Below, piece by piece: positions 7,922 to 60,237 of a stretch of DNA of 64,000 nt. Position 1 is the first letter of the stretch. Each line of letters starts with the position of its first letter. Source of the stretch: Rhodanobacter sp. AS-Z3 (GTDB lineage: Bacteria; Pseudomonadota; Gammaproteobacteria; Xanthomonadales; Rhodanobacteraceae); assembly GCF_029224025.1 (NCBI RefSeq), contig NZ_CP119392.1, forward strand, positions 4,028,381 to 4,092,380, written 5' to 3'. The position numbers were made by a program, and so were the translations under genes. The notes below the pieces were generated by a model, which saw only the letters and a program-made list of their open reading frames with translations, did not search any database and was not told the DNA's origin.

Positions 7922-7936
7922 CCATCATCGAGCCGT

Positions 7937-10460: not shown

Positions 10461-11003
10461 ATGGATTACGACGTTAAATCACCGCTGTCGGCCGAACGCT
10501 GTGAATCGGCCTATGGCTCACTCTCCGAAGTCCCCTTTAGGCGCATCGATCACATCGCTCTTGCGGTGCGCGATCTCGAAGAAGCAGTACATCTTTTCGG
10601 GAATATCCTTGGCTTCGAGCTAAAAGGCCGCCGACAAATCCGCGGTGCGACCACCGGCATGATCTCTGCCGAAATGGAAATCAACGGCATGCGGTTCGTG
10701 CTTTGCCAAGGGACGGAACCCCAATCGCAGGTATCCCAACTGATCGAGAATTTCGGCGTTGGCTTGGCGCATGTGGCATTTGAGGTCGAGGACGTAGAGC
10801 AAACGGTCGAGATGCTTCGCAACCGTGGCATGGGCTTCGATACCAATGTCATTCGCGGTTCCGGTCTTACGCAATCGTTCACTACGCGCTGCCACAATAC
10901 CGGCATGAGTTTTGAGCTCATTCATCGCGAAGGCGAGGATGGTTTTCTCGAAGGCAACGTGCAGGCGTTGTTTGACCAGTTGGAACAGGGTAACAAGTAC
11001 TGA
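10461..11003 (+). CDS. Half-size hydroxymandelate synthase / HPPD-like VOC protein
   Basis: A 180-residue single VOC unit; the ATG at 10461 follows AAGGGA. It aligns with the C-terminal catalytic half of 4-hydroxyphenylpyruvate dioxygenase (HPPD) and hydroxymandelate synthase, which convert (4-hydroxy)phenylpyruvate using Fe(II). The expected 2-His-1-carboxylate ligands are all present: His31 (RIDHIAL), His104 (LAHVAFEV) and Glu152 (MSFELIHR). The C-terminal GFLEGNVQALFDQLE is an HPPD/HMS signature, not typical of methylmalonyl-CoA epimerases. Known HMS and HPPD proteins are ~350 residues with two domains, and this one lacks the N-terminal domain. It is first in the NRPS operon, 84 bp before the aminotransferase. 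I infer mandelate or hydroxymandelate formation for arylglycine supply. A glyoxalase-like or resistance role is the alternative. Confidence 0.65.
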   Translation: MDYDVKSPLSAERCESAYGSLSEVPFRRIDHIALAVRDLEEAVHLFGNILGFELKGRRQIRGATTGMISAEMEINGMRFVLCQGTEPQSQVSQLIENFGVGLAHVAFEVEDVEQTVEMLRNRGMGFDTNVIRGSGLTQSFTTRCHNTGMSFELIHREGEDGFLEGNVQALFDQLEQGNKY

Positions 11004-11087
11004 CGCTTTAAATGGATGCTGCCGGGCCGCCGGGGGGTGGCGCTGAGCCGTTGTGAGTGTGCGTTGGAAAATTTATCTGGGGGAGTA

Positions 11088-12353
11088 ATGGCAATTCCGG
11101 GGAACAATTCTGTCATGAATTTTCTTAATGAAGTCGCCGAGGCTTATCCAGCGGCGATTTCGTTGGCAGCTGGACGTCCGGGTAACCAGTTATTCGACGA
11201 GATTGATACAGAATCCCTGAGTCGCTGGTTGGCCACCTTTCGCGGTACCGCTCCTTTATCGAGCCTGTTGCAGTACGGCCGCACTGCGGGCCTGATTCAT
11301 GAGCTCGTCGCGCGCCAGATCACCAACGACGACGGCGTACCTGCTTGCGCGGATCGCATGGTCGTTACGGCGGGGTGTCAGGAAGCGCTTGCATTGTGCG
11401 TGCCAGAGCTGTGTCGGGAAGCGAGTGATGTGCTGCTGGTGCGTAACCCTTGCTACATCGGCATCACCGGCGCTGCAGCCGGCGCATCAGTCGCGTTGCA
11501 GTCATTGGATGGAAACATCTCTGGCATCGATGCACAGATTGAATCGGCCGTTGCACAGTTGACAACAAGTGGACGCAGTGCGCGCGCTGTCTATCTCGTG
11601 CCGGATTTTGACAATCCCACCGGCGAAGTTATATCGCTGGAACAGCGCCGCGCGATTCTTGCGATGTGTGCACGTCATCGTATCGTGGTGCTTGAAGACA
11701 ACCCGTACGGAATGTTCCGCTACGAAGGCACCCCGATTCCACCCATGGCGGCGCTCGACGACACGGGCTGTGTCATCTACTTCTCTACCTATTCGAAGAC
11801 TATTGCCCCCACCATGCGTGTTGGTGCCGTGATGCTGCCGGAAAGTCTGTTTGGTGATCGTGGCGCATCCGTCGCACTGTACAAGGCGATCGTGGAGCGA
11901 AAGAGCTTTGTTACGGTCAATACCAGTCAACTGTGCCAAGCCATTGTCGGCGGCTTGCTGATCGAGCGCGATTGCAGTTTGCGCAGCTGGCTCAGCCCCA
12001 CCGTGGAGATGTACCGGCGCAATCGCGACGAAATGCTTGCGCAGCTCGCCGAGAGTTTCCCCACTGGCAGGGCAGCGGTTAACTGGAACCAGCCTGAAGG
12101 TGGCTTTTTTCTTTGCGTGGATGTGCCGATGCGCTTCGATGGCGACGCTGCCACCGAGTGCGCTACCCGCGATGGCGTGATCGTGTTGCCGATGTCCTTC
12201 TTCGCGTTCGACGCGACACAGGACCAGCGGATCCGTCTCGCATTCAGCGCAGTCGAGCCGGATCGCATCCGTGCCGGTATTGTTGGACTGTCCCGATTCG
12301 TCGCACGCCGTGTCGGGACGCACGTTCGCCGCGAACATTCCTTGGCGATCTGA
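11088..12353 (+). CDS. PLP-dependent class I/II aminotransferase (possible arylglycine aminotransferase)
   Basis: A 421-residue fold-type I aminotransferase. The ATG at 11088 is chosen for the GGGGGAG just upstream; the frame is open further back without homology. Visible elements are LQYGRTAGLIHELVA, TAGCQEALALC, YLVPDFDNPTGEVIS (the NPTG motif), LEDNPYGMFRY (Asp for the PLP nitrogen) and the Schiff-base lysine Lys237 in STYSKTIAPTMRVG. This is the MocR/ARO8-like family that includes HpgT, which aminates 4-hydroxybenzoylformate to hydroxyphenylglycine in glycopeptide pathways. The operon position between the HMS-like protein and the NRPS supports a precursor role. The exact 2-oxo acid is not shown by the sequence. 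Confidence 0.75.
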   Translation: MAIPGNNSVMNFLNEVAEAYPAAISLAAGRPGNQLFDEIDTESLSRWLATFRGTAPLSSLLQYGRTAGLIHELVARQITNDDGVPACADRMVVTAGCQEALALCVPELCREASDVLLVRNPCYIGITGAAAGASVALQSLDGNISGIDAQIESAVAQLTTSGRSARAVYLVPDFDNPTGEVISLEQRRAILAMCARHRIVVLEDNPYGMFRYEGTPIPPMAALDDTGCVIYFSTYSKTIAPTMRVGAVMLPESLFGDRGASVALYKAIVERKSFVTVNTSQLCQAIVGGLLIERDCSLRSWLSPTVEMYRRNRDEMLAQLAESFPTGRAAVNWNQPEGGFFLCVDVPMRFDGDAATECATRDGVIVLPMSFFAFDATQDQRIRLAFSAVEPDRIRAGIVGLSRFVARRVGTHVRREHSLAI

Positions 12354-12420
12354 TAACGGGGCGACGCGGTGAATTTCTCCGTGTCTCTCCTTCGCAAACC
12401 AACGATCGCGGAGAATCGGC

Positions 12421-13866
12421 ATGGGAATGCCGGCAAAGCGCGGCGTACCTGACTACGTGAGGGATGGCATGAAGCTGAGTCACATTGAGCACTATCTGAT
12501 GCAGGGCATCCAGACGCTACGTCGCGACGACCCGGAACTGTTCGACATTCTCGAACGCGAGCATCAGCGGCAATCGGAGTCACTTTCTCTTATCGCCTCC
12601 AGCGGCGGCACCGATTCATCAGTGCTAGCGACGGTAGGCAGCACCATCGTCAATGTCACGGCCGAAGGGTATCCGGGCAAGCGCTATCACGCAGGCTGTC
12701 GATTTGTCGACATGGCCGAACAGCTCGCCATCGATCGCGCGAAGAAGGTATTCGGCGCACGCTACGTCAACGTGCAGCCGCATTGCGCAAGTTTCGCCAA
12801 TCACACGGTGATGCAGTCCCTGCTCTCGCCCGGCGACACGATCCTCGGCATGTCGCTGGATCAAGGCGGCCATCTGACCCATGGATCCCCGGTCAATCTC
12901 AGCGGCAGGCTTTACAGGGCCATCGGCTACGGCCTGGATTCAAAGGGACTCATTGATTATGGCCAATTGCGCGAGCAGGCCCTCGAACATCGTCCGGGAC
13001 TGATCGTTTGCGGCACAACCTCCTACACTCGTGTCATCGACTTTGATCGCATTCGTGGTGCAGCCGATGAAGTCGGTGCCTATGTGCTTGCCGACATCAC
13101 GCATATCGCAGGCCTGGTAGCAGCCGGCGTCCATCCAAGCCCTATCGATGCGGCACACTTCACCACCACCTGTACGTTCAAGCAACTCTACGGCCCGCGT
13201 GGCGCGCTCATCATGATGGGGCGCGACGCCGATACCATCGGGCCTGATGGCGCGCGCACCTTGTCCAACGGCATCCAGAGCGCCGTGTTTCCGCTCATGC
13301 AGGGCTCTCCCGAAGTGCACACCATTGCCGCCAAAGCGCGTGCCATGGGCCGTCTGCTCGAGCCAGAGTTTCGCGACCTGGCGCGCCGCATCCATGCCAA
13401 CGCGGCAACGCTTGCCGATGCCCTGCAGGCGCGCGGCTACGAAGTCATTAGTGGCGGCACCGATAACCACATTGTCCTGTTCCGCGTGCCGTCGCATCTC
13501 AACGGAGAGGTAGCGACACGTGCACTGGAGCACTGCGGGATCCTGGTGAATAAGAACAAGATTCCTGGCGACTACCGAAGCGCGGCAACTGCGAGCGGTC
13601 TGCGTCTGGGCAGCAATACCGTATCGCTGCGCGGCATGGGCAAGAAGCAGATGCACGAGGCCATCGAACTGATTGATGTCGTGCTTAAGCATGCGCATGC
13701 CAGCGGCGGTGGCAGTTTCGAGCTCGATGAAAACGTGTACGACCAGGTGAACGGCAGCGTGCGTGAGCTATGCCGCATGTATCCGATGCCGTACGACGCG
13801 CTGCCATCGATGCGCGTCGAGCCAGGCCAAGCCGTCACGGAGCCTGCTGTCGCACTTGCGCCTTGA
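12421..13866 (+). CDS. Divergent serine hydroxymethyltransferase-like PLP enzyme
   Basis: A 481-residue protein clearly of SHMT ancestry (TAEGYPGKRY, GGHLTHGSPVN, HIAGLVAAGVHPSP, LYGPRGALIMMG), with the PLP lysine at Lys254. Key SHMT residues have changed. The catalytic Glu of IASEN is replaced (IASSGG, Ser61). The His before the PLP lysine is Phe (TFK). The Tyr before AEGYPGKR is Thr, and the second Tyr of KRYY is His. It is therefore unlikely to be a housekeeping glycine/serine enzyme. SHMT-like enzymes in natural-product clusters include threonine transaldolases (ObiH, LipK, fluorothreonine transaldolase) that make beta-hydroxy amino acids. A similar tailored-monomer role is an inference. 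The start at 12421 has GGAG 8 bases upstream; the ATG at 12469, also with a good site, is an alternative. Confidence 0.75.
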   Translation: MGMPAKRGVPDYVRDGMKLSHIEHYLMQGIQTLRRDDPELFDILEREHQRQSESLSLIASSGGTDSSVLATVGSTIVNVTAEGYPGKRYHAGCRFVDMAEQLAIDRAKKVFGARYVNVQPHCASFANHTVMQSLLSPGDTILGMSLDQGGHLTHGSPVNLSGRLYRAIGYGLDSKGLIDYGQLREQALEHRPGLIVCGTTSYTRVIDFDRIRGAADEVGAYVLADITHIAGLVAAGVHPSPIDAAHFTTTCTFKQLYGPRGALIMMGRDADTIGPDGARTLSNGIQSAVFPLMQGSPEVHTIAAKARAMGRLLEPEFRDLARRIHANAATLADALQARGYEVISGGTDNHIVLFRVPSHLNGEVATRALEHCGILVNKNKIPGDYRSAATASGLRLGSNTVSLRGMGKKQMHEAIELIDVVLKHAHASGGGSFELDENVYDQVNGSVRELCRMYPMPYDALPSMRVEPGQAVTEPAVALAP

Positions 13867-13939
13867 TTCACACGTTGAAACGCGCCGTGCAATCCACGGT
13901 GCGACGGTTCGGTTTTTGCCAATTTCAAGGATAGTTACC

Positions 13940-16450
13940 TTGCACGAGTCCATTCCGTCCCCCGAACGCCATTCCATCCCTTCGGATACGGAAGAAGACT
14001 TCTGGCGTGATTACCTTGCTGGCCTGCTAACGACAACGCGAATCGGAATGGAGCGCGAAGACGCACTATCGCCTGACGAGTTCGCCGTCGTTCGTACGAC
14101 ACTTGATGCCAGCTCGCTGGATGGCGATGCGGCTCTTGAAACGTATGCTTGCGCGGCGTGGGCCCGCCTGCTTGCCACGTACAGCGGTGAAAACGATGTT
14201 GTTTTCGGCGTTGCAGGAGGGCGACCGCTACGCGTACGCGTGGATCCTGCGCAGCGTATCGCTACTTTTCTGGAAACGGTCGCGACGACTATTGCCGACG
14301 TATCGGTGCGGCGAGCCACCCCACTCGCTCGCCTGCGTGAGCTGGCAAACCTCGAACCGGGCACGCCACTGTTTGACACCGCCTTGTACGTTGGAAAGCA
14401 ACAAGGCGTTGAAACAGATGCGGCGTCATCGTCCCTCATTGTGTCGATCGTTGGTGCTCCGACGGTTGAGATCACATTGCGTTACGCAGTGGCCCGCATG
14501 AGCGCCACGGCAGCGGCAGAAGTGCTTGATCAGCTGCGCATGCTGGTCGAAGCGCTATGGGGGCGTGGCGACAGCACGTTGCATGCCGCACCCACTGTGG
14601 CAGGACCTTACGCCGCGCGGGCACTGCACGAATGGAATGCCACTGCGGAAGCTTATGACGATCAGGTGACCCTGCATGGCCTGGTTGAGCGGCAGGCCAC
14701 TGCGCATCCGCAGCGCCTGGCCGTCGTCGCCGACGATGGCGCATGGAGCTACGACGAACTGGATCGACGCGCAAATCAGGTTGCACATCGCCTGGTTGCG
14801 CTTGGTGTAAGGCCCGGCGATCAGGTGGGACTCTGCGCGGAGAAATCGGCAGCAACGGTGGCAGGCATGCTCGGCGTGATGAAAGCCGGCGCCGCCTACG
14901 TGCCCATCGATCCGGGCTACCCGGCAAGTCGCATCAGTTACATGGCCGGCGACGCACAATTGAGTGCATTGCTGACCTGGGGCCAGGGCGCAGTCGCCAC
15001 GGCAGAACTCAAACTTCCTCGCATCGCGCTCGATGAATGGAGAACCCTCGCCGAGTATTCGGTGAAACCGTTGTCGCACAACGTGCCCGCAGACGCATTC
15101 GCGTACGCAATCTATACCTCTGGCTCCACCGGCCAACCCAAGTGCGTGCTGCTCAATCATCGCGGCCGCATCAACAACATCGAGGACTACTGCCGCCGCC
15201 TCGAACTCGGCGAAACCGATCGCGTCTTGTGCGTCTCATCGCTGAGTTTCGATATTTCTGTGTGCAACATTTTCTGCATGTTCCGCTCGGGCGGTTGCGT
15301 GATCTTTCCGTCGCTCGATCACCTGAAGGATCCGGACCATTGGCTTGACGTCATGCAGGAGAGGTCGGTGACATTCTGGCATTCCGCACCCGCGCTGATG
15401 GATGCGTTGCTGGAGGCCGCCAGTGAGCGTCGCTACGACCGCAACAGCTTGCGTGTCGCGCTACTGGGTGGTGACTGGGTTCCGCTGTCGCAACCAAACC
15501 GTGCGCGCGCGGCGTTCCCGCGAATGCGCTTCGTCACGGCCGGTGGCGCCACGGAACTGTCGATCGATTCGACTTTTTATCCGGTCGACGAGATTGATCC
15601 CGCGTGGCGAAGCATTCCCTATGGCCGACCGCTCGCCAACCAAAGCGCACTGATCCTCGATGCGGACATGGCACTCCTGCCACCGGGCGTACCTGGCGAA
15701 TTGCATCTGGGTGGTGCCGGCATGGGCGCCGGCTACATGAACAGGCCAGCCCTCACCGCCGAGAAATTCATTCCGCATCCGTGGCCAACGATACCGGGTG
15801 AACGCCTCTACCGTACCGGCGATCTTGCGCGGTACATGCCCGATGGGACAATCGAGCTGCTTGGACGCATGGATTTCCAGGTAAAGATCCGCGGCATGCG
15901 CATCGAACTGGGCGAACTGGAATCGGTACTCATCGAGCACTCATCGGTCACGGCGTGCCTCGCCAGCGCGCCGCATGATGGGGCCGGCGACCGTCGGCTG
16001 GTCGCTTACGTGGTGCCTGTTCCCGGAACCGATAACCGTCTGCATGCATCGTTGCACGAGTGGCTTGCCGCGCGGCTTCCCGTGCATCTGGTACCCGAGG
16101 CTTTCGTCACGCTGGAACGGCTGCCGCTCACACCGAACGGGAAAGTCGACCGCCGCAACCTGCCTGCTCCCGATCCGGATGCTTACTGCGCCGAGCGTGC
16201 CTACGAGCCGCCGCAGGGCGATACCGAACAAAGCCTGGCGGCCCTTTGGCAGCGGTTGCTCGGTGTGAGTCGCGTGGGCCGACACGATCACTTTCTCGAC
16301 CGGGGTGGCCATTCGCTGCACCTTGTCCGCCTGCTCAGCCGGGTCCGTCGCACATTTGGTGTCGAACTGGCACAGAGCGCACTGGCAGGTACGCAATCGC
16401 TCGCCGACATGGCAACGCTGATCGCCGGCGCTGATTCGGCATCCAGCGAA
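13940..16450 (+). other. Module 1: half-C, A (DICHLGAIDK), T
   Basis: The half-C keeps only the C-terminal subdomain (FWRDYLAGL, AAWARLLATYSGENDVVFG, TPLFDTALYVG) and has no HHxxxDG. The A domain is of the GGDWVPL / GGATELSIDS type. The by-eye code DICHLGAIDK shares D-I-x-H-L-G with hydroxyphenylglycine codes and G-A-I-D with some Arg codes, so the substrate is open. The carrier motif reads DRGGHS rather than ELGGHS. Confidence 0.6.
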
Positions 16451-19400
16451 ACGGGGCTGGTGCCGCGGCGTCCGGGCACTCCCGCATCGCCGTCGTTCGC
16501 TCAGAAACGCCTGTGGTTCATCACTCAGATGGAAGACCTTGGTGCGGCTTATCACATGCCCGCCGCATGGGTTTTGCATGGTGCGCTCAACGAAACTGCA
16601 CTGCGCGGAGCACTGAATGGCGTTCTCGATCGGCACGAGGGTCTGCGTAGCCGCTTCATAACCGTCGATGGCGAACCGGTGCTGCTTATCGATCCGATCG
16701 GAACACCGATGCCGCAATCGTTCCACGATCTGCAAGGCCGGTCCGACGCTGCGCAGGTCCTTGACCTCATTCTGGCAAACGATATCCAAGCTCCATTCGA
16801 TCTCGCCAGGGATACGCTCGCGCGTGCCAGTCTGATCCGCATGGATGCGCATGAGCATGTGCTTTTACTCGTCCAACACCACATAGTGTCGGACGGCTGG
16901 TCGTACGCGCCGCTGCTGCGCGATATCGGCGAGCTTTACGACGCTTTGGTGAAAGATGGTACCGCTTCCCTGCCGCCCTTGCCGTTGCAATACGCCGACT
17001 ACGCCGCATGGCACGGTACATGGCTTGCGGGCGAACGTGAACGTGTGCAGTCGGACTACTGGCGGCGTGCACTTGCCGGTGCACCCGCGTGCATCGCGCT
17101 GCCGACCGATCGCGAACCGCCCGCACAGCAATCGCCGAAGGGTCGCGGGCATCCCGTGCATATCGATGTCGAACTCGCGCGACGCCTTCGCCGCGTGGCC
17201 CAGCACCACGGCACCACGCTTTTCGCTGTTGTCCTCGCGGGTTGGTCCGTGGTGCTGTGGCGTCTGTCGGGACAGCACGACTTGGTGATCGGCGGAGTCA
17301 CCGCCAACCGCGGGCAGGTCGAAACCGAATCGCTCATCGGCTTCTTCGTCAACGCGCTTGCGTTACGCGTCGATCTTTCGGGCGATCCGAGCGTGACCGA
17401 ACTGCTCGAGCGCGTTCGCCACACCGTGCTTGGCGCACAGGATCACGAGGACCTTCCGTTTGAGCGGGTTGTCGAGCTGTCTCAGGTCGAGCGCCTACCA
17501 GGACGCACGCCACTGTTCCAGACGATGCTCGCGTGGCAAAGCCACGACGAGGGGAGTCTCCGACTGGCCGACCTCGCCACGGTGCCCCGGCCCGTCGCGC
17601 ACGAAACGGTACGTTTTGAATTCGAACTCACCTTGCGCGAGCAGGATGAGGCGATCGTCGGCGAACTCAACTACACCACAGCGCTGTACGACCATGCAAC
17701 GGTGGCGCGCTACCGCGACTACTTCGTTCGCGTGCTTGTCGCCATGGCGGCCGATCCGGCTCAAGCGGTCGGACACATCGCTCTAATGGGCGACGGCGAA
17801 CGCACGCAGTTGTTTGAGACCTTCAACGACACCGTCGCACAGTATCCGCACGATGTCGGCGTGCATGTGTTGTTCGAGGAACAGGTGGGCCAACGCCCTG
17901 ACGCCGTGGCACTCGTCGACGGCGATGCTTCGCTCACTTACACTGAGCTTAACACGCGCGCCAATCGCATCGCCCATCGGCTGATCGCCATCGGCGCCGG
18001 TTCAGGTGACTTCGTAGCGGTCCTGCTTGAGCGCAGCGCCGACCTGGTCATCGCTCAATTGGCTATTCTCAAGGCGCGTGCCGCTTATGTGCCGGTCGAC
18101 CCGCAACTTCCCGAAACGCGTCAAGCGTGGTTGGTCAAAGATGCTGGAGCGCGCTGGGTGATTGCTGCTTCGGCACATGCCGCGCCGGCCATCGGTGCGC
18201 CGGTGGTGGGTATTGACGAACTACTGCATGGTGAGAGTCGCGTCGACAACCCGCATCGCGAAGTCGATGCCGGTTCGGTCGCTTACGTGATGTACACCTC
18301 AGGCTCCACCGGTCTACCCAAGGGTGTGCTGGTCCCGCATCGCGCGATCAACCGTTTGGTGCGCAACAACGGTTATGCCGCATTTGGTCCGGACAGCCGG
18401 GTGGCCTTCGTCTCCAATCCCGCGTTCGACGCCGCCACTATGGATGTGTGGGGTCCGCTGCTCAATGGAGGCGTCGCCGTGGTGATCGATCACGCCACCG
18501 TGCTCTCCGTCCAGGCGTTCGTCGAAACACTGCGCCGCACCGCGGTCGATACCATCTTCCTGACAATCGCCCTGTTCAACCAGATCGCCGATGCACTGAC
18601 GGCGGTGATGCCGCAGTTGAAAACCCTGATCACCGGTGGCGAAGCCTTCGATCCCACGGTGATCGCCCGCGTGCTCAAGGGACCGCACCCGCAGCGTCTG
18701 CTCGCCGCCTACGGACCCACCGAAGCGACCACATTCACGACCACGTATCTCATCGAGGGCCATGCGCGGGAAACCAAGAGCATTCCGATCGGTCGCCCCA
18801 TCAGTAATGCGCGTCTGTATGTCTTGGATGCACATCGCCAACCGGTGCCGATGGGTGCGGTGGGGGAGTTGTATATCGGTGGCGCTGGCGTGGCGCTCGG
18901 CTACCTCAATCGTCCGGAACTAACCGCCGAACGTTTCCTGCCCGATCCGTTCGATGCACGGCCCGATGCACGCATGTATCGAACCGGCGATCTGGTCCGC
19001 TATCTGCCCGATGGCAACTTGGTTTTCATGGGGCGTGTCGATGATCAGGTGAAGATCCGCGGCTATCGCATCGAACCGGGCGAGATCGAAGCGCGATTGG
19101 CCGAGCATCCGGCGGTACGCGAAGTCGTCGTGTTGGTGCGTCAGGATCCGACCGGCGACAAGCGCCTGGTAGCTTATGTGGTGGTCGGCGCGGATGCGTC
19201 GGGCAATCTGGCGGCGGCTTTGCGTGCGCATCTGGCGCCACGTCTGCCCGACTACATGATTCCAGCTGCCTACATCGGCATGGCAGCGTTTCCGCTCACG
19301 CCAAATGGCAAACTCGATCGCAAAGCGTTGCCGGTTCCGGACGACGAAGCCTTTGCCCGTTTGGGGTATGAAGCGCCGCACGGCGAGGTCGAAACCATCC

Positions 19401-48300: not shown

Positions 48301-49055
48301 GTGTGGCGCTGGGCTATCTCAATCGTCCGGAACTGACCGCCGAACGTTTCCTGCCCGATCCGTTTGCGGCCCAGGCGGATGCCCGCCTGTACCGGACCGG
48401 CGATCTGGCGCGTTATTTGCCGGACGGTCACGTGGTCTTCCTAGGCCGCAACGATCATCAGGTGAAGATTCGCGGCTTCCGCATCGAGCTGGGCGAGATC
48501 GAGGCGCGGTTGGCCGAGCATCCGTCAGTCCGCGAAGTGGCGGTGCTGGCCCGTCAGGATGGCGGGACCGACAAGCGGCTGGTGGCGTATGTCGTGGCCC
48601 ACACGGAGGCCCCGGCGGATCTGGCGGCGGTGTTGCGCGCGCATCTTTCCACGCGCTTGCCCGATTACATGTTGCCGGCGGCGTACGTGGCCCTGGACAC
48701 CTTCCCGCTCACGCCCAACGGCAAACTGGATCGCAAGGCCCTGCCCGCACCGGACGGCGACGCGTTTGCCCACCACGGTTTCGAAGCGCCGCGCGGCGAC
48801 ATCGAAATCACGCTGGCCAACCTGTGGCAGGACCTGCTCGGTATCGAGCGCGTCGGACGGCACGATCACTTCTTCGAATTGGGCGGCCATTCTCTGCTCG
48901 CGATGCGTCTAGTTGGCCGCATTCGCACGGTATTCCGTGTCGAGCTGCCTGTAAGCGCGCTGTTTGAGACCTCCACGATTGCGTCACTGACCGAACGTCT
49001 AAGCCGCGCGCGTCCATCGACACGCAAACCCCTTCGTCCCATGCGTTCTTCGTGA
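42324..49055 (+). CDS. Nonribosomal peptide synthetase NRPS-C (modules 10-11)
   Basis: A 2243-residue protein starting at TTG in a 4-base overlap with NRPS-B. The first ~50 residues ([19 protein letters not shown], then [14 protein letters not shown] and [12 protein letters not shown]) have the pattern of a TubC-type N-terminal docking domain. It is followed by a dual C/E domain ([11 protein letters not shown], then HHLIGDHST), A, T (Ser~1132), C ([11 protein letters not shown]), A, T (Ser~2190). Both A domains read DALWIGGTFK (Val) and are near-identical to each other and to module 6. No C-terminal docking or release domain is recognised. It ends in a GTGA overlap with NRPS-D. Confidence 0.93.
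42500..45840 (+). other. Module 10: dual C/E, A (DALWIGGTFK, Val), T
   Basis: The early His motif is stretched ([11 protein letters not shown], two residues longer than HHLLAQEGD). It implies D-configuration at residue 9. The A domain is its own sequence up to 44508, then switches to the Val repeat through the carrier serine. Confidence 0.75.
44508..45730 (+). repeat. Val repeat, copy 2 (module 10)
   Basis: 1223 bp matching 31276-32498. It begins at the A3 core ([16 protein letters not shown]) and ends right after GGHSLLAV. Confidence 0.9.
45870..49000 (+). other. Module 11: C, A (DALWIGGTFK, Val), T
   Basis: C domain with [11 protein letters not shown]. The whole A domain and the first part of T (47208-48901) repeat 30802-32495 of module 6. 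After the carrier serine, the sequence becomes [17 protein letters not shown]. Confidence 0.8.
47208..48901 (+). repeat. Val repeat, copy 3 (module 11)
   Basis: 1694 bp matching 30802-32495. It begins in the C-A linker and ends after GGHSLLA. Confidence 0.9.
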
Positions 49056-52000: not shown

Positions 52001-55000
52001 GCGTTGCCGGAGATTGGCATTGACGACAACTTCTTCGACTTCGGTGGCGACTCGATTCTTGCGCTACAGCTAAAGGCACGAGCTCAAACTATCGGTCTGG
52101 CGTTCGAATTGTCCACGTTGTTCGACCACCAGACGGTCGCAGCGCTAGCCAGCGTGGTCGTTGTCGTGTCCGGCGATACCGCGCCTGCACCGGCGGAACA
52201 GGCGGATGAGGACATGCCCGCCAACATGCCTGCGGGCGTCATTGACGCTTACCCAATCAGTCAGTTGCAGCTCGGTATGTTTTTCCATAGCGACTTTGAG
52301 GAGGCGACCACGCTCTATCACGCCGCCATGGGCTTTGTGGTGGAAACGCCTTACGACGCAAACGCCCTTCGGCGCAGCCTGGACGATCTGACCGCGCGTC
52401 ATGAGCTGCTGCGTACCGCATTCGATCTGGAGTCATACAGCGAGCCGCTGCAACTGATTTATCGCAAGACCACCATCCCGCTGAGTGTGGACGATTTGCT
52501 GGGCCGCGCACGCGCCGAACAGGATGCTGCGCTTGCCGCGTGGTTTCACGCCGATGAGCGCCACGGTTTCGACAAACGCAAGGCGCCACTGTTTCGCGTG
52601 CATATACATCTGCTTGACGATGCACGCTTCCACCTCGCCATCAGTTGTCACCACGCCATCATGGATGGCTGGAGCGATGGCTGTCTGGTGACCGAACTTA
52701 TGCAGCGCTATCACGCCCACGTCGATGGACGTTCCATCCCGGCCGAACCGCTGGCTGTCGCGTATCGGGAATACATTCGCCTCGAACGTGCCGCAATGAA
52801 TTCCGAAGAGAGCCGCATGTTCTGGACCGACACGTTGCGCGGGCTGGACGCGCGGGCACCGCTGCATGGCACGCCCGCACAACCGTCAGCGGGGCACGCG
52901 ATGTCGCACATCGCTATCGATCCTGCGTCGGGCGCGGCGGTGGTTGCACTGGCGAAGCGGCTGGGTGCGCCATTGAAGTCCATATTGCTCGCCGCGCACA
53001 TGGCCGCACTGGGTGTTCTGTGCGGTACCCGGGATGTCGCTACGGCGCTCGTGACGAATGGCCGTCCTGAAGTGGCCGATGGCGAGAAGATGATCGGCTT
53101 GTTCCTGAATTCCGTGCCCTTCCGGCTGACGCTTGGCGAGTGCGACTGGACCAGGCTGATTCGTCGCACGATGGAACTTGAGCGCGACTTGTTGCCGCAC
53201 CGTCGCTTCCCATTGCCGTTGATTCTCAAGCAGACGGGGTTGCGCGACTTCCTGCACGTGGTGTTCAACTACACGCATTTCCACGCTTACGACGAACTCG
53301 GCGACTTGAGTGACCGCGTGGCCGCGCAGGGCGGCGGCGGCAGCAACAGTTTTGGACTGCAAGTGAATTTCCGCCCAGATGGACATGGCATCGCTGGCTG
53401 GATAACTGGTCGCGGCATGCTTTACGACCACCCCACGCTGGACCGCTATGCCGATGTCTACGCACGCCTGTTGCGCGCGATGGTCGCGGATGCCGATCAG
53501 CCGCCACCACGCCTGAATCTGCTCGATGCGCGCGACAACGATATTTTGCGCGCATGGAACTCCGCGCCTCGCGCTCCCGAAGCGCCGCCGCTGGAATGGT
53601 TCGACCGGCAACACGCCCTGCATCCGCAAGCGCCGGCTGTCCGCGACGCGGAGGTCGAGCTGGATTACGCCACGCTCGACGCTCGCGCCAATCGTCTCGC
53701 CCGGCGTCTGATCGCCGCTGGCGTCGGCCCGGAACAACGTGTCGCCATTGCATTGCCGCGATCCGCTGCGACGATCGTGGCAGCGCTTGCGGTGATGAAG
53801 GCAGGCGCAGCATTCGTGCCGCTCGATCTTGCCTATCCCAGCGAACGGCTTGCCTTCATCCTGCATGACGCAAAGCCGGTACGGGTTATCTCCACGCGCG
53901 CGCTTGCCGACAAATTGCCCGTGCCGATTCCGCTGGTGGATGTGGCAGATTGCGATGACAACATCGTTCAAGTCGCAAGCAACGTCGTCCCGCAGCCGCC
54001 GCTGCGGGACGGACATCCCGCCTACGTGATCTATACCTCCGGCTCGACCGGCAAGCCCAAAGGCGTTGTGGTGTCGCACTCCGGCATCGCCAGCCTGGCG
54101 CAAACCATGGCCGATCGCTTCGGGATCGAAAAGCAATCGCGCGTCGTGCAACTGGCATCCAGCAGCTTCGACGCGTCGGTCATGGAAATGCTGATGGCAT
54201 TGGCCTCAGGCGCGTGCCTGGTCGTGCCGCCGCCCGGTCCGCTGCTTGGCGAGGAACTGGCTCACTTCCTCGCGGAACGCGGTATTACGCATATGCTCAT
54301 CTCGCCCTCTGCCTTGCAGACGGTCGACCCGGCGGCCCCCGGCTTGCCCACGACACTTGTCGTCGGCGGCGAAGCCTGCTCGCCGGAAACAGTGGCGCGG
54401 TATGCATCGGGGCGACGCATGTTCAACGCATACGGCCCCACCGAAATCACGATCTGCGCCAGCATCAGCGACCCGCTCGTCGCACCGAGCGCGCCGATCG
54501 GGCGTCCGGTGATCCATACCCGCCTACATGTACTCGACGACACGCTGCAGCCGGTCCCACCAGAAGCCGTGGGAGAACTCTATGTTGAAGGCGCGGGACT
54601 GGCACGCGGCTATCTCGGCCGTGCCGCGCTGACTGCTGAGTGCTTCATCGCCAATCCATTCGGCGCACCCGGCGAACGCATGTACCGCACTGGCGATCGG
54701 GTGCGATGGAATGCACACGGGCAACTGGAGTTTGTGGGCCGCGTCGACCAGCAGGTGAAGATTCGCGGATTCCGCATCGAGCCGGGCGAAATCGAAAGCG
54801 CGCTGATGAATCTTGGCCAGCTTCGCGCCGCGGCGGTCATCGTGCAGGAGACCGTAACGGGGCGACACCTGGTCGCCTACGTCGTGCCCGCCGCAAACGA
54901 TCTGGATACTGCAGCACTTCGCCACGAGCTGGGAGGCATACTTCCTGAATACATGATTCCCGCCGTCATCATCGCGATGGAAGGACTGCCACTGACCGCC

Positions 55001-56005
55001 AACGGCAAGATGGACACGCGCGCACTGCCCGTTCCGCGCTTTGAGACTGCAGTGACCCAGGCGCCGCGTACGCCGGCGGAGGAGATGCTGGCGGCACTCT
55101 TTACCGAAGTACTGGATATCGAAGCTATCGACATCGATGACAGTTTCTTCGAGCGCGGTGGCGATTCGCTGCTGGCCATCCGCCTGATCGCGCGAGTGAA
55201 TGCCACATTCGGCAAGCGATTAGCCATTGGTGCGCTCTACGCGCAGCCCAACGTTGCCGCCCTGGCCCATCTATTGAATCAGGGAGATATGAGCGAGCAG
55301 ACGCCGCCTGCCGTGCTGCCGCTGCGCGTAAAGGGTGCAACTGCGCCGCTGTTCTGTTTGCCGCCCGCCGGTAACGTTAGCTGGTGCTATGCGGGGCTCG
55401 TTGCGCACGTGCGCAGCGACTGCCCCGTCTATGGGCTGGAAACGCCCGTCGGCGCCTATGCCGAGACCATCGACGATATCGCTGCCATCCATCTGGCGCG
55501 AATCCGCGAACTGCAGCCGCATGGGCCCTACCGGCTCACCGGTTGGTCCATTGGCGGCTTGCTTGCTCATGCTGTGGCGACCCGGTTGCAGGCAGCTGGT
55601 GAACAGGTGTCGTTGCTTGTGCTGCTCGACGCGTATCCATTCGAGGCCCTGTGCGAACTAACTGCTGCCGTAGAAGGACAGAGCGGCGCGGCCACGTCCG
55701 TCGCTGTTTCCCGACTGACGCAGCACGTAGGCACCGACGCGGTCGTTGTGCAGATGCTCGGCACACTGGAACACAGCGCCGCATTGGCCGCCACTTTCCG
55801 CCCTGCGACGTTTGATGGCGACATGGTGTTCATTCGCGCCGCCGACCCGCTGCGCAACACGCCGCTACCGACTGTCGACCTGTGGAAGAAACATATCTCC
55901 GGATCGCTGAAGCTGCACGACGTGCGTGCCGACCATTTCAGCTTGCTCGATCCGCCGCACCGCGCAGCCATTGGCGAATTGCTCGACCGCTATCTGGGCC
56001 AATGA
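49052..56005 (+). CDS. Nonribosomal peptide synthetase NRPS-D (modules 12-13 and thioesterase)
   Basis: A 2317-residue terminating synthetase: C ([11 protein letters not shown]), A, T (GGDS, Ser~1000), C of an unusual type ([25 protein letters not shown]), A, T (GGDS, Ser~2039), and thioesterase with GWSIGG (Ser~2166), an Asp in LLDAYPF and His in RADHFSLLD (~2295). The GTG at 49052 forms a GTGA overlap; the ATG at 49064 is an alternative start. The A codes are DAWTVAAVCK (Phe) and DAMLVGAICK (unresolved, hydrophobic). Both carrier domains are GGDS, unlike all earlier GGHS ones. The thioesterase should release the 13-mer by hydrolysis or macrocyclization; Thr side chains or a beta-hydroxy residue could act as the nucleophile. 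Confidence 0.95.
49064..52170 (+). other. Module 12: C, A (DAWTVAAVCK, Phe), T
   Basis: The pocket differs from the GrsA Phe code by one conservative change (I299V). A Phe or beta-hydroxy-Phe-type residue is expected. The carrier [14 protein letters not shown] is of the GGDS class. It is a natural target for the CmlA-like hydroxylase encoded next to the operon end. Confidence 0.75.
52230..55270 (+). other. Module 13: atypical C, A (DAMLVGAICK, unresolved), T
   Basis: The condensation domain differs from all others in the cluster: it starts [19 protein letters not shown], has CHHAIMDGW as the catalytic motif and lacks the LSFAQQRLWFL start. The A code ends AICK like aromatic-binding domains, but Met239 and Leu278 are unusual. 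Confidence 0.6.
55310..55990 (+). other. Type I thioesterase domain
   Basis: An alpha/beta hydrolase fold at the C-terminus of [28 protein letters not shown], the nucleophile in GWSIGG and a late catalytic His in DHFSLLD. It is single, not a tandem TE-TE pair as in many Pseudomonas lipopeptide synthetases. Confidence 0.9.
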
Positions 56006-56090
56006 GCATGCTGCATACGGTTTATCCGCACCGACTTTCGTTTACACCGTCCGGTGACATGCCCACACCGAACGGTCTCATGGAGAACGC

Positions 56091-57707
56091 ATGAACACGA
56101 CCGACACCGACCAGGTCTATCTGGCCAGCGACACCAAGCTCGAACCGCTCGTGTTCAACTGGTATGCTTGGAGTCATCTTGTTTCGCCCATCACGCTGGC
56201 CCTCAACCTGGCCAATCGCCATTTGCCGATGCTCAAGTCGTTCATCGCCAACCCGGCGGTACATGAAGCGGCGTCGACGAATCCGAAAATGCTGGGCGGG
56301 TCATTCCTCGAGCTCGGATGCAACGATGTTGCGGCGGTACGCGTCTTGCAGCAGCACATTCTCGATGACGGCGCCCCGCTAATTGGCCTCGCCGACGATC
56401 TTTTCAAGCTTGATCGCAACATGCAACAGTCGGCAACCGGTTACAGCCTCGATCATTTGTACGACACGATGCCCGCAAGCCTTGCCGGCATGATCGAGGT
56501 GACGTACGACCTGAATAACCGGCCCGCGCTGCGCGTACTGGAAGAATTGATGGTCGGTGAAGCACCCACGAACGCCGCGCCGCAGCAGCTAGCCTTCACG
56601 CGAACGCGCGACGAGAAACGCAACTTCTTCCTCAATACTCCACGTCTGCCGACGAGCGGCCGGATGATCCTGCCGGCAGCCTTCGCAGGCCCCGCCTTCG
56701 ACATCATCACGCAAAGCCGTATCGCGCCCGTCTCCTTTCGCGCGTTTGCCGCCGCACTCGACGTGAAGGATCAGGCAGAGCTTGATCAGCTGCGAGAATA
56801 TTTCGTTGAGCAGCCACCAAGGCGCAACGAACCTGCATATGCAGGCGACGACTTGCGTGTCCGTTATTTCGGACACGCTTGCATACTGTTGCAGACCGAT
56901 GAAGTTTGCATCCTTATCGATCCCTTTCTTACCTGGGATAACGACGACAACGAGGGGCGCCTGACCTTCCATGACCTTCCCGATCATATTGATTACGTGT
57001 TCCTGACACATAACCATCAGGATCACTTCAGCATTGAAGTGCTGCTGCAATTGCGTAATCGAATCGGCCAGATTCTGGTTCCGCGCAACAACGCCAACAA
57101 TTTTGCCGACCCGTCAATGAAAATCGCACTTGCGGCGATCGGACATCGGAATGTTGCTGTGATGGACTCGATGGATCGCATAGAACTTCCTGGCGGACAT
57201 CTTTACAGCTTGCCATTCCTCGGTGAACACGCAGACCTGAGTATTGCGAGCAAGCATGGGCTATGTATCGAGCTGAAAGGTTGCAGGATACTGCTGCTTG
57301 CCGACTCGGACTGCAAGGATCGCATGCTCTACCGCCGCATTGCAGCGCGTGTCGGCCGCGTGGATCACCTGTTCATTGGCATGGAATGCGACGGCGCGCC
57401 ACTGAGCTGGATGTACGGCCCGTACTTCGGCAACAAGGTCACCCGCAAGGACGACGAATCCCGCCGCCTGTCAGGCTCTGACTGTGAGCACGCCTGGGCA
57501 ATCGTCGAGGAATTCCGTTGCAACGACGTGTACGTCTATGCAATGGGACAGGAACCGTGGATGCGCTTTGTCGCCGGACTGCAGCTGACGTCTTCGAGCA
57601 AGCAGATTGTCGAATCTGAAAGATTCATCACACGCTGCCGCGATGCGGGTCACCGGGCTGAACGCTTGCACGGTTGCCGAACCTTCGTCCTGCATGCTGC
57701 GTCGTAA
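56091..57707 (+). CDS. CmlA-type diiron beta-hydroxylase acting on NRPS-bound amino acid
   Basis: A 538-residue protein with an N-terminal domain (~1-260) and a metallo-beta-lactamase fold (~265-500). It has the size and layout of CmlA, the chloramphenicol enzyme that beta-hydroxylates a carrier-bound aminophenylalanine with an oxo-bridged diiron centre. The LTHNHQDHF motif gives His307, His309, Asp311 and His312, exactly two positions after the CmlA ligands His305, His307, Asp309 and His310. Glu379 (LGEHAD) and Asp405 (LADSD) keep the same offset from Glu377 and Asp403. His467 (DCEHAW) is a candidate for the last ligand. It lies 85 bp after NRPS-D and is probably the last gene of the operon. 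The likely target is the Phe carrier of module 12, but other carriers are possible. Confidence 0.85.
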   Translation: MNTTDTDQVYLASDTKLEPLVFNWYAWSHLVSPITLALNLANRHLPMLKSFIANPAVHEAASTNPKMLGGSFLELGCNDVAAVRVLQQHILDDGAPLIGLADDLFKLDRNMQQSATGYSLDHLYDTMPASLAGMIEVTYDLNNRPALRVLEELMVGEAPTNAAPQQLAFTRTRDEKRNFFLNTPRLPTSGRMILPAAFAGPAFDIITQSRIAPVSFRAFAAALDVKDQAELDQLREYFVEQPPRRNEPAYAGDDLRVRYFGHACILLQTDEVCILIDPFLTWDNDDNEGRLTFHDLPDHIDYVFLTHNHQDHFSIEVLLQLRNRIGQILVPRNNANNFADPSMKIALAAIGHRNVAVMDSMDRIELPGGHLYSLPFLGEHADLSIASKHGLCIELKGCRILLLADSDCKDRMLYRRIAARVGRVDHLFIGMECDGAPLSWMYGPYFGNKVTRKDDESRRLSGSDCEHAWAIVEEFRCNDVYVYAMGQEPWMRFVAGLQLTSSSKQIVESERFITRCRDAGHRAERLHGCRTFVLHAAS

Positions 57708-57713
57708 GTATGT

Positions 57714-57743
57714 GCCGCCTACACCACTAGCGGTGTAGGCGGC
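57714..57743 (+). terminator. Perfect 12-bp hairpin after the CmlA-like gene
   Basis: GCCGCCTACACC, loop ACTAGC, GGTGTAGGCGGC, starting 6 bases after the TAA stop. The stem is strong but no T-tract follows. It probably ends the ~47-kb operon or protects its 3' end. Confidence 0.6.
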
Positions 57744-57769
57744 CTCGGCCGAAGTGCCGCAACACACTT

Positions 57770-58384
57770 ATGCGGGTGCTTTGGTTTGAACAGTTTGCTC
57801 TGGCCAGAACTCGTGGCTTTTACCTGCTACCAAGAGATGACGGCAGCGTGGTGGGTGCCGCGCTTCTTGCACGCGCGGATGATCATCCAGACGAGCGTCC
57901 GACGAAAATGGACGTCATGTCACCTTACCTAGGCAGTCGCATGAATCAGGGGACTCTTAGGAATGTCGAGCGCTTCGGCACTCTACCGAAATTTACCCGT
58001 TGTGGTGACGACGCGCCTCGTCGCGCCGCAGACGGCAAGATCATTGCGTGGGTGCAGGGGCGCGCAGAATTCGGTCCACGCGCCCTTGGCAATCGCTCGA
58101 TACTTGCCGATCCAAGGTCGCCATCAATCAAGGAAACAATAAACGCCAAAGTGAAGTTTCGCGCAGAATTTCGGACGTTTGCGCCGTCCATCCTGCATGA
58201 ACATGGAAACGAGTATTTCGAACACTATCAGGAATCGCCGTACATAAAGCGGACGCTGAAATTTCGCGAAACGGCTGCCGGCAAGGTTCCAAGTGTAGTG
58301 CACGAGTATGGTACGGGCCGGCTGCAGACGGTCAAGAAACATCCTGATTCCCCACATTACGCATCCAAGGTTGCGAGTCGGTAA
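57770..58384 (+). pseudogene. Carbamoyltransferase (NodU/CmcH family), truncated at both ends
   Basis: 204 residues corresponding to the end of the N-terminal (Kae1-like) domain and two thirds of the C-terminal domain of O-carbamoyltransferases: WVQGRAEFGPRALGNRSI, LADPRSPSIKETINAKVK, FRTFAPSILHEHG, ending GRLQTVKKHPDSPHYA. The family is ~550-600 residues. The N-terminal domain is absent, and the C-terminus is cut by IS1595 sequence near 58363. These enzymes put carbamoyl groups on hydroxyls using carbamoyl phosphate, so an intact ancestor may have decorated the peptide. In its present form it should be inactive. Confidence 0.8.
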
Positions 58385-58385
58385 G

Positions 58386-58736: not shown

Positions 58737-59047
58737 AAGCTCGGGTGCATACCTTGACGTGGGACAACGGAAGCGAGTTCGCCCAGCACGCCCTGGTGGA
58801 CAGGGTCTTGACGGCCAAGAGTTATTTCGCCGAACCGTACTCATCCTGGCAGCGCGGCACCAATGAAAACACCAACGGCTTGATACGGCAGTACCTGCCC
58901 AAAGGATGTGGTCTGAGCGCTTACTCCGACGCCGACATTCAGGCGATTGAAGACAAGCTAAACCAACGACCTCGAAAGCGTTTAGACTTCCGTACGCCAC
59001 CACACGTTTTTTATATCTCCTTCAACCGTGGTGCACTTCGTAGTTGA
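58733..59047 (+). pseudogene. IS30-family transposase C-terminal fragment
   Basis: Reads TLTWDNGSEFAQHALVD, SYFAEPYSSWQRGTNENTN, GLIRQYLPKGCGLS and IEDKLNQRPRKRLDFRTP, the second Asp and Glu region of the IS30 DDE domain. The N-terminal half is missing at the junction with the IS1595 fragment. Confidence 0.85.
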
Positions 59048-59124
59048 ATCCGCCAAACAAGCTAAACAAGCCAGCCCACGACCACGGTTATGGGATACGA
59101 CGTTCGGGGGCAAGGTCTTACCCT

Positions 59125-59172
59125 CGCGGACGTCTGGGTGTCCGTTTCGGTTTCAATAGATCAGAGCATCCC
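59125..59172 (+). repeat. Solo IS5-type right end upstream of the PPTase gene
   Basis: Hairpin CGGAC/GTCCG (59127-59144), then TTCAATAGATCAGAGCATCCC, the same arrangement as 719-766. It ends 30 bp before the PPTase start codon, so it may replace or carry the promoter of that gene. Confidence 0.65.
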
Positions 59173-59201
59173 AATGGGATGTACTTTGGGAGGCAGAAAG
59201 C

Positions 59202-59927
59202 GTGAACAGTGTAAGTGTAGGCATGGATATGGAGGGGGCACGACGATCTGAAGGAGCAATATGGTCGGAAACATTGGTGCCGATGCCAGCTCGCTCAACG
59301 AATACCCACTTAGTCGGGTGCTCAATAACGCGCAGTAATGATTTTCCAATTGCACGAAATTCCCTTCCTGAGCACCTATCGGTTGCAACTAAAGAGCGGC
59401 AACGCGAATTTCTCGCGGGTCGCCAGTGCGCGCGGAACGCATTGGGCCTGGCAGGTTGCACGATGCCAGGCGATCTCGCCATTGGAACGGATGGATTACC
59501 TCAGTGGCCCGATGGTTGGCTGGGATCTATCAGTCACAATAGAGATGCCGCGGTTGCCGTGGCCGCGTCCAAGAACCTGTGTAACATTCTTGGCGTAGAT
59601 CTAGAAGCTTGGATCGACGATGATGTCGCAGAAGAAATTCATGAGCAAGTTTTCCAGCCAAGTGAACTGGCTCAATTTCCTGGCTACACTCCAGCCCAGG
59701 CACTTACGTTGGTTTTCTCGGCGAAGGAAACCCTTTACAAGGCACTCTATCCAGAGATGAGACAGTTCCGCGATTTTAAAGCAGCATGTGTGATTGGAGT
59801 CAGTTCTGATCATATCTACCTGAGATTAGAGATAGACTGGGGGGGGGCCTGGCGACGTGGCGTTACTCTTGCAGTGACCTACGCCCACAGCAATATCGCG
59901 GTATGTACGTTGCTCGACAAAGCTTGA
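59202..59927 (+). CDS. 4'-phosphopantetheinyl transferase, EntD/Sfp type
   Basis: A 241-residue enzyme that transfers phosphopantetheine from CoA to carrier-domain serines, here the 13 T domains of the NRPS. Family signatures are present in order: KERQREFLAGRQCAR, GSISHNRDAAVAVAA, ILGVDLEAW (magnesium-binding Asp and Glu) and LVFSAKETLYKALYP (the W/FSxKE-x-x-K motif). The GTG start is preceded by GGGAGG. It is followed ~100 bp later by the MbtH gene. Base composition looks less GC-rich than the NRPS, in line with a separately acquired segment between IS5-type ends. Confidence 0.92.
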   Translation: MNSVSVGMDMEGARRSEGAIWSETLVPMPARSTNTHLVGCSITRSNDFPIARNSLPEHLSVATKERQREFLAGRQCARNALGLAGCTMPGDLAIGTDGLPQWPDGWLGSISHNRDAAVAVAASKNLCNILGVDLEAWIDDDVAEEIHEQVFQPSELAQFPGYTPAQALTLVFSAKETLYKALYPEMRQFRDFKAACVIGVSSDHIYLRLEIDWGGAWRRGVTLAVTYAHSNIAVCTLLDKA

Positions 59928-60030
59928 TTCCTGCCGGTAGATCGCGCTCGATAGTAGTGCAACCCCAGACGGGGCTAACCGGTATGTTGCAGACTCATTT
60001 TACTAGTTGTGACCAAAGAGGACATTGCAC

Positions 60031-60237
60031 GTGACCCATCCACTTGAGGATTCTCGTTCGGCGTTTTCCGTACTCGTCAATGACGAGGGGCAGTATTCCT
60101 TATGGCCTACCTTCGCAGAGGTTCCGCTGGGGTGGAAGACTTGCTTTGGCCCTGAAAGCCGTCAGTCTTGCTTAGACTATATTGAGTGTAAGTGGATCGA
60201 CATGCGTCCGCTTAGCTTGATTAAAGCCCAGTCTTAG
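60031..60237 (+). CDS. MbtH-like protein
   Basis: A 68-residue MbtH-family chaperone/cofactor that binds NRPS adenylation domains and often is needed for their solubility or activity. The signature is [24 protein letters not shown] and [17 protein letters not shown] in two blocks, with the conserved Trp residues. The GTG at 60031 is preferred because AGAGGA lies 8 bases upstream; a TTG at 60025 is possible. The stop codon directly abuts a GGGATGCTCTG IS5-type end. Confidence 0.93.

Follow-up and report, generated by a model that had tools for sequence, protein, structure and literature searches.

A nonribosomal peptide synthetase (NRPS) cluster lies in the final 64 kb of the 4.09-Mb single-contig genome of Rhodanobacter sp. 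AS-Z3 (NZ_CP119392.1, positions 4,028,381 to 4,092,380; this stretch of 64,000 nucleotides is called the window below). We judge it probable that its 13 modules form a colinear assembly line whose rare building blocks are made by enzymes of the same locus, with the residue order, hydroxyphenylglycine (Hpg), alpha-quaternary serine and 3-hydroxyleucine proposed below. One gene, termed half-HMS, encodes a single-domain relative of 4-hydroxyphenylpyruvate dioxygenase (HPPD) and hydroxymandelate synthase (HMS). With a little less assurance, we favour the view that arylglycines of Proteobacteria come from a hydroxymandelate synthase class of its own, built of a single domain, which is often accompanied by an aminotransferase and whose partner dehydrogenases differ (mandelate dehydrogenase-like, or of the Ldh family in Vibrio), and that a whole range of NRPS clusters not yet studied, in rhizobia, vibrios, Dyella and others, are supplied by it. 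The evidence consists of domain content, specificity codes, sequence families, gene neighbourhoods and their co-occurrence. Published sources are cited from excerpts of their text, and L and G numbers are our handles for loci and genomes.

In the proposed scheme, a serine hydroxymethyltransferase (SHMT) of the PbzB/FmoH type would make an alpha-quaternary serine, which the first adenylation (A) domain, A1, would load on a module without a full condensation (C) domain. Half-HMS is proposed to form 4-hydroxymandelate from 4-hydroxyphenylpyruvate, the product would then be oxidised by a mandelate dehydrogenase (797-1957), and an aminotransferase would yield Hpg for A8. A CmlA/FrsH-type enzyme would hydroxylate Leu on module 13, dual condensation/epimerization (C/E) domains would invert residues 5, 6, 7 and 9, and a thioesterase (TE) would release the chain.

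Assembly line and predicted residue order

A profile search of the whole genome gave 18 matches to PF00501, 13 of them within the four NRPS genes. According to Pfam, these genes carry 3+6+2+2 = 13 A domains, 3+6+2+2 = 13 thiolation (T) domains and 2+6+2+2 = 12 complete C domains, with one TE in total and one TubC_N docking domain at the N-terminal start of gene 3 (gene 2 was scanned in two parts). Since the domains match their families over full length, chance matches are no concern, and the repeated C-A-T modules with a terminal TE are those of a modular type I NRPS. The open reading frames (ORFs) overlap by 4 bases each (22852/22855, 42324/42327 and 49052/49055), and therefore colinearity and coupled translation are likely. 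Four coupled genes with these A, T and TE counts had been claimed in a preliminary description made from the sequence alone, and the Pfam counts and overlaps bear this out. For a full C domain in module 1, neither an HHxxxDG motif nor an extra Pfam Condensation stretch was found, and the N-terminus of this module may be read as the rear portion of a C domain. The motif HHLIxDxS, a mark of dual C/E domains, is present in the four C domains preceding A6, A7, A8 and A10; assigned by this motif and without a C-domain tree, the four are predicted to be dual C/E domains giving D configuration at residues 5, 6, 7 and 9, in agreement with the four dual domains and four D residues of the preliminary description. 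Identical repeats between modules, the longest of 1,694 bases (30802-32495 = 47208-48901) and another of 1,442 bases (28096-29537 = 34609-36050), suggest recent module duplication or gene conversion.

The nine-position codes come from an alignment made with MAFFT, with A12 as the anchor and at what we take to be the GrsA positions. They are DICHLGAID (A1), DAMFIGATF (A2) and DILQLGLIW (A3) in gene 1; DVQYAAHVA (A4), DFWNIGMVH (A5), DALWIGGTF (A6), DFWNIGMVH (A7), DILHLGCTF (A8) and DSALIAEVW (A9) in gene 2; DALWIGGTF for both A10 and A11 in gene 3; and DAWTVAAVC (A12) and DAMLVGAIC (A13) in gene 4. By the standard codes, A3, A4 and A12 presumably activate Gly, Pro and Phe. Literature assignments rest on PMC12283262, for which six codes were looked up: DILHLGCTFK is given there as Hpg, DSALIAEVWK as His and DFWNIGMVHK as Thr, and DALWIGGTFK is among the most frequent Leu/Ile/Val codes. 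In a tree of 189 A domains, A2 is nearest to the cluster's own Val domains, so that residue 2 would be Val or Ile; the set was gathered around CmlA, half-HMS and SHMT matches, by which the nearest-neighbour results here and below are partly built in. Residue 9 is proposed to be D-His from its code and the dual C/E domain before A10.

The predicted order is (2-hydroxymethyl-Ser or alpha-Me-Ser)-(Val/Ile)-Gly-Pro-D-Thr-D-Val-D-Thr-Hpg-D-His-Val-Val-Phe-(3-OH-Leu). By the codes, the order of the preliminary description holds, and its unassigned residues 1, 8, 9 and 13 now receive proposals. Every substrate, all of the chemistry and the configurations are predictions, and the product may be linear or cyclic. 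The calculated [M+H]+ of the variant with 2-hydroxymethyl-Ser, Val and Hpg is 1450.758 as a linear and 1432.747 as a cyclic peptide, and that of the variant with alpha-Me-Ser, Val and Hpg is 1434.763 and 1416.752, respectively; Ile as residue 2 would add 14.016 to each. No characterised product with the same residue order was met in the literature searched, a comparison that did not include MIBiG, and the encoded 13-residue peptide is probably undescribed.

Proposed arylglycine supply for residue 8

Half-HMS is about 180 residues long (180-221 depending on the start chosen) and, aligned to HPPD chains, keeps only the C-terminal domain. Known HmaS is a two-domain enzyme of about 350 residues with the HPPD fold, a size and architecture that half-HMS does not share. 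The 2-His-1-Glu iron triad of the HmaS C-terminal domain is present in it, and H31/H104/E152 are invariant in 17/17 aligned sequences, the relatives being 39-64% identical to half-HMS. The HMS-like protein of the preliminary description is thus retained as a relative of HPPD and HMS, although as a single domain of half the size. An AlphaFold2 model from 11 sequences shows one HPPD-type domain (mean pLDDT 81.3, pTM 0.75), with a pLDDT of at least 81 in each ten-residue block from 31 to 160. A feature of HMS is an aliphatic residue in place of the Phe that follows the C-terminal GN in HPPD. In the 17 half-HMS sequences, this position is Val in 15 and Thr in 2; it is Phe in the HPPDs 8xtv, 9lia and 1sqi and Ile in 7yvv, which is titled HPPD, in an alignment from which HmaS 2r5v is absent. 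Residues that separate HMS from HPPD exist according to the excerpted text of PMC3720870, which names none.

Stop-to-stop frames in 19 half-HMS loci are of 164 residues in 2, of 176-233 residues in 12 (including the window's own) and longer in 5 (L016, 251; L112, 259; L101, 265; L088, 357; L027, 435). The L101 frame is a half-HMS fused to chorismate mutase, and the first start codon of the L088 frame gives 169 residues. Relatives of similar size adjoin NRPS genes in Alpha-, Beta- and Gammaproteobacteria. At E 1e-25, half-HMS was found in 8/398 genomes of the order and in 3/398 genomes of a phylum sample, its own genome included in each; within the order search no other genome of the genus had one. 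Further half-HMS loci (L014, L016, L021 and L027) were brought in by the CmlA search. No description of a single-domain HMS was found in the open-licence literature searched, a comparison that did not extend to the Hpg supply genes of Burkholderia lipopeptides.

The aminotransferase has homologues, 39-57% identical, in 12/18 half-HMS locus groups; two loci that have no half-HMS (L025 and L080) carry one as well. Half-HMS, an aminotransferase and NRPS genes stand together in Rhizobium sp. T136, Sinorhizobium chiapasense, Bradyrhizobium sp. 187 and Vibrio europaeus, the last having an Ldh-family oxidoreductase in addition; in Paraburkholderia sabiae, half-HMS is found with an NRPS but with no annotated aminotransferase. 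For the oxidation step between half-HMS and the aminotransferase, the proposed pathway needs a mandelate dehydrogenase gene beyond 10461..60237, the range to which the preliminary description had confined the cluster. The enzyme encoded at 797-1957, the only near-complete FMN_dh match in the genome, is proposed to fill this missing step, and a pathway without mandelate oxidation was rejected in view of this candidate. Its best solved relative is the (S)-mandelate dehydrogenase 6bfg (E 1.9e-153, 514 bits), with lower scores for L-lactate oxidase 7f22 (260 bits), glycolate oxidase 5zbm (251 bits) and 4-hydroxymandelate oxidase 5zzp (190 bits); the nearest NCBIfam models are lactate dehydrogenases, all under cut-off. 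Among all 128 fetched loci, searched at E 1e-20 or better, homologues (37-67% identical) are confined to half-HMS locus groups, of which 5/18 have one. The homologue lies directly past the aminotransferase in L014 (Dyella tabacisoli, 67%), L016 (59%) and L109 (59%), in the last of which half-HMS is 2.7 kb further on, and G283 and G287 have a 37-38% homologue nearby on the other strand.

The code of A8, from which Hpg is proposed as residue 8, is identical in five half-HMS loci (L096, L102, L103, L114 and L116) and near-identical in two others (L097 and L108), and half-HMS loci are the source of all six A domains closest to A8 in the tree. Of the half-HMS locus groups in which an A domain could be read, 8/12 have a code of this type, versus 0/69 loci whose fetched stretch has no half-HMS (Fisher p 1.5e-8, for locus groups that are not phylogenetically independent). 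In this count, the window itself was left out of the 12, and a further six half-HMS groups gave no A domain that could be read; two A-like matches of fatty acyl-AMP ligase type without the A-domain filter motif (L021 and L112) were left out as well, and the L016 code DPRSHCQMT, probably from no true A domain, was kept. The His at position 278 of A8 would match the hydroxyl-binding His in the Hpg A domain of Tcp9 (PMC11253843), the match of positions being our own. The arylglycine announced in the preliminary description is backed by the company half-HMS keeps with the aminotransferase and the mandelate dehydrogenase, and by this code.

Several observations weigh against Hpg. The N-terminal domain found in known HMS is missing from half-HMS, which also has no NCBIfam equivalog, its score with the HPPD model being 77 bits versus a cut-off of 277. 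The fetched DNA of 6/18 half-HMS groups has no aminotransferase homologue and that of 13/18 no mandelate dehydrogenase, and in the window the latter is about 8.5 kb from the rest, on the opposite strand. The code pattern was chosen after the data were seen, and 4/12 groups are without it (G283, G368, L016 and L101, some of them cut stretches). The next tree neighbours of A8 are Val domains; Hpg codes cannot be told from the codes of the parent residues (PMC12283262); and a Burkholderia relative of burriogladin has Val in place of burriogladin's Hpg (PMC7866175).

The same assembly line might accordingly carry another residue 8, if A8 takes phenylglycine, its 4-amino analogue or valine, or if half-HMS makes another alpha-hydroxy acid. 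We regard this as rather doubtful, although it survives best among the alternatives. Besides the overlap of codes and the Val replacement just mentioned, it draws on the pocket of half-HMS, which may differ because only the C-terminal domain of HPPD is kept, on a dehydrogenase nearer to (S)-mandelate dehydrogenase than to 4-hydroxymandelate oxidase, and on pabB-type genes near half-HMS in S. meliloti L101 and Bradyrhizobium L102, which hint at 4-amino substrates in relatives. Hpg is preferred over these residues in view of the published assignment of the A8 code and the predicted hydroxyl-binding His, and the arylglycine-type genes would be superfluous for a Val module.

Decay is an unlikely explanation of the small size. 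An IS1595 element at 9266-10228 lies directly upstream of half-HMS, the carbamoyltransferase of the cluster is a fragment and the mandelate dehydrogenase is displaced, all of which would fit a non-functional HMS truncated by the neighbouring insertion sequence (IS) in a silent or broken cluster. However, the triad is invariant, two relatives have whole open frames of just 164 residues, the model has a pLDDT of 81 or more in every block from 31 to 160, and the frames of all four NRPS genes are open; IS truncation was rejected on account of the relatives of similar size beside NRPS genes.

Two neighbourhoods of half-HMS relatives are recorded here in their own right. In Dyella tabacisoli (L014, 2422-13336), CmlA, half-HMS, aminotransferase and mandelate dehydrogenase genes stand together beside an apparent NRPS gene end, in a group that includes a gene resembling aminodeoxychorismate synthase by eye. 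On the Sinorhizobium meliloti plasmid accessoryA (L101, 9680-10462), the half-HMS domain lies inside a gene annotated as chorismate mutase, which adjoins pabB, a prephenate dehydrogenase-like gene and an NRPS; this locus is possibly a 4-aminophenylglycine pathway.

Residues 1 and 13, and the setting of the cluster

Pfam matches confirm the CmlA-type hydroxylase, aminotransferase and SHMT-like enzyme of the preliminary description. The cluster SHMT has the motif TAEG--RYH (TAEGYPGKRYH), and the second SHMT of the genome, 46% identical to it, has YAEG--RYY (YAEGYPGKRYY). TAEG--RYH marks the PbzB type, which makes 2-hydroxymethylserine, versus YAEG--RYY for the GlyA type, and the A domain served by a PbzB-type SHMT groups with cysteine A domains (PMC10098953). 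Because of this motif, residue 1 would be an alpha-quaternary serine, either 2-hydroxymethylserine or alpha-methylserine. The three A domains nearest to A1 in the tree each follow such an SHMT, in Azospirillum (L100, code DICHVDAID, SHMT 68% identical), Streptomyces (L125) and Pseudonocardia (L099). Among solved structures, the best single-domain score of A1 is with 6lta (207 bits), which is FmoA3, activating alpha-methyl-L-serine (PMC11253843). As points on the other side, position 236, by our placing, is Ile in A1 versus the small Ala in FmoA3, so that A1 may take either of the alpha-substituted serines, and the A codes near the SHMT relatives of G459 (L120) and Staphylococcus epidermidis (L126) are unlike that of A1, which weakens a simple one-to-one rule between SHMT and A1. 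The motif also varies among relatives (TAEG--RYY in Pseudonocardia L099, TAEG--RFH in L120). A fluorothreonine-type transaldolase was rejected, since the NCBIfam model F_threo_transal gives 74 bits versus a cut-off of 650 and the PbzB motif fits better; an ObaG-type threonine transaldolase is disfavoured, without a direct comparison. In the small NRPS locus of the L126 plasmid (8065-19439), a member of the same SHMT family is found together with a YcaQ-type DNA glycosylase and with genes for aminodeoxychorismate/anthranilate synthase.

The CmlA/FrsH-type enzyme has both CmlA_N and a metallo-lactamase-type domain. It is 65-70% identical to its closest relatives, in D. subtropica, D. mobilis, B. 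multivorans WS-FJ9, Oleiagrimonas soli and Rhodanobacteraceae bacterium ZG21-1; relatives are also found in Chromobacterium loci, the nearest overall being 59-70% identical. The homologue in a Candidatus Burkholderia crenata plasmid record (L019) is 59.4% identical. Ca. B. crenata and C. vaccinii carry the FR900359 cluster, whose FrsH hydroxylates Leu on FrsA (PMC7794379), and we infer that the L019 homologue is FrsH. A13 (DAMLVGAIC) differs at one position from a DAMLVGAVC domain of L019, where one further A domain lies between this domain and the CmlA gene. Residue 13 is probably leucine, 3-hydroxylated by the CmlA/FrsH-type enzyme. Against this assignment, the close CmlA relatives L007, L010 and L018 adjoin NRPSs with the code DAYFWGVTF, with no DAxLxGAxC code in the fetched part, which makes residue 2 an alternative target of hydroxylation. 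The beta-hydroxy residue of the preliminary description is upheld by the CmlA relationship and the Leu-type code of A13, but not by the SHMT, which points to an alpha-quaternary serine and not to a beta-hydroxy acid.

The coordinates are collected in Table 1. The IS island separates the mandelate dehydrogenase from half-HMS and the remaining cluster, and contains an ORF with a PDZ domain (6892-7521, minus strand). No match above cut-off to the N-terminal domain of the carbamoyltransferase was found anywhere in the genome, and the fragment is probably the remnant of a tailoring gene. Congeneric genomes (several of them incomplete) gave a CmlA ortholog in 0/35 searched, one of them (G018) having a weak 82-residue CmlA match (E 4.3e-4); together with the lack of half-HMS in the other genomes of the genus and the flanking insertion sequences, this suggests that the cluster was gained horizontally. 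An ordinary lipopeptide or siderophore NRPS of a known peptide family, with tailoring genes nearby by chance, is very improbable: such clusters are common and insertion sequences lie on the flanks, but no full C domain able to acylate residue 1 precedes A1, the tailoring families pair with specific A codes in unrelated genomes, and the absence of CmlA from the congeneric genomes argues against a chance neighbourhood of common genus genes.

Table 1. Features of the window (positions count from its first nucleotide)
Feature	Position	Strand	Basis or remark
(S)-Mandelate dehydrogenase-type flavin mononucleotide (FMN) enzyme, proposed to oxidise arylglycolate (mandelate) to arylglyoxylate	797..1957	-	FMN_dh match
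Insertion-sequence island (IS21, IS3-like, IS481-like, IS1595)	3943..10228	.	Pfam rve, IstB_IS21, DDE_Tnp_IS1595; plasmid IS matches
Half-HMS, HPPD/HMS-like dioxygenase with one domain	10461..11003	+	Similarity to HPPD/HMS, iron triad, relatives of similar size
Pyridoxal phosphate (PLP) aminotransferase, proposed to convert arylglyoxylate to arylglycine in an HpgT-like role	11016..12353	+	PF00155
PbzB/FmoH-type SHMT, proposed to supply module 1 with 2-hydroxymethylserine or alpha-methylserine	12421..13866	+	PF00464
NRPS gene 1: (partial C)-A1-T, C-A2-T, C-A3-T	13867..22855	+	Uncertain start codon; the ORF is open from 13763 and overlaps the SHMT gene
NRPS gene 2: six modules A4-A9, dual C/E-type before A6, A7, A8	22852..42327	+	
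NRPS gene 3: TubC_N, dual C/E-type-A10-T, C-A11-T	42324..49055	+	
NRPS gene 4: C-A12-T, C-A13-T-TE	49052..56005	+	
CmlA/FrsH-type diiron beta-hydroxylase, proposed Leu13-S-T to 3-hydroxy-Leu	56091..57707	+	PF18456 CmlA_N 236.8 bits, lactamase_B-type domain
Carbamoyltransferase C-terminal fragment	57770..58384	+	PF16861 only
4'-Phosphopantetheinyl transferase	59202..59927	+	PF17837 and PF01648
MbtH-like protein (matched portion of ORF)	60034..60186	+	PF03621 E 1.3e-24, sole match in genome

Comparison with known systems

NRPSs of 13 modules are a known kind, and Hpg is known from peptides of Gram-negative bacteria (PMC9581180). Within the literature searched, two things are new: an HMS-type enzyme of one domain that recurs in Proteobacteria as an arylglycine module, and the predicted 13-mer. 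The latter would bring together an alpha-quaternary serine, Hpg, D-His and 3-hydroxyleucine, which were not met in one peptide there. If the proposal is true, the committed step of Hpg formation falls to a minimal dioxygenase that has no HMS N-terminal domain, and half-HMS would be a handle for finding arylglycine peptides of Gram-negative bacteria as well as a simple system for asking what distinguishes HMS from HPPD.

FR900359 is a depsipeptide with an acylated 3-hydroxyleucine and another module order, and to our knowledge it contains neither Hpg nor an alpha-quaternary serine. The window cluster resembles its system (PMC7794379) in the FrsH-like diiron hydroxylase, the MbtH-like protein and the A code of Ca. 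B. crenata one residue from that of A13. The benzobactin/JBIR-34 SHMTs (PbzB and FmoH) share the motif TAEG--RYH and serve an A domain of the cysteine-like subclass; in benzobactin, the unit is joined to an aromatic starter, whereas here the A domain is in the first module of a 13-mer (PMC10098953). The glycopeptide Hpg pathway (HmaS, Hmo and HpgT) has the same three reaction types and leads to the same residue as is proposed here (PMC6677016, and what is known of these families). It employs a two-domain HMS and an Hmo-type FMN enzyme, whereas the window cluster has a single-domain HMS and an enzyme of mandelate dehydrogenase type.

Feglymycin-type 13-mers have many Hpg and dihydroxyphenylglycine (Dpg) residues and are rich in the latter; a feglymycin-like composition was rejected, since one Hpg-type code is found among the 13 of the window. 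In its 13 residues and its arylglycine, the predicted peptide resembles feglymycin, a 13-mer with Dpg (PMC5133696). Burriogladin, haereogladin and haereoplantin are likewise peptides of Gram-negative bacteria with Hpg, and haereoplantin has a beta-hydroxyleucine, although these Burkholderia lipopeptides have about 5-8 modules, are acylated and contain other residues (PMC9581180).

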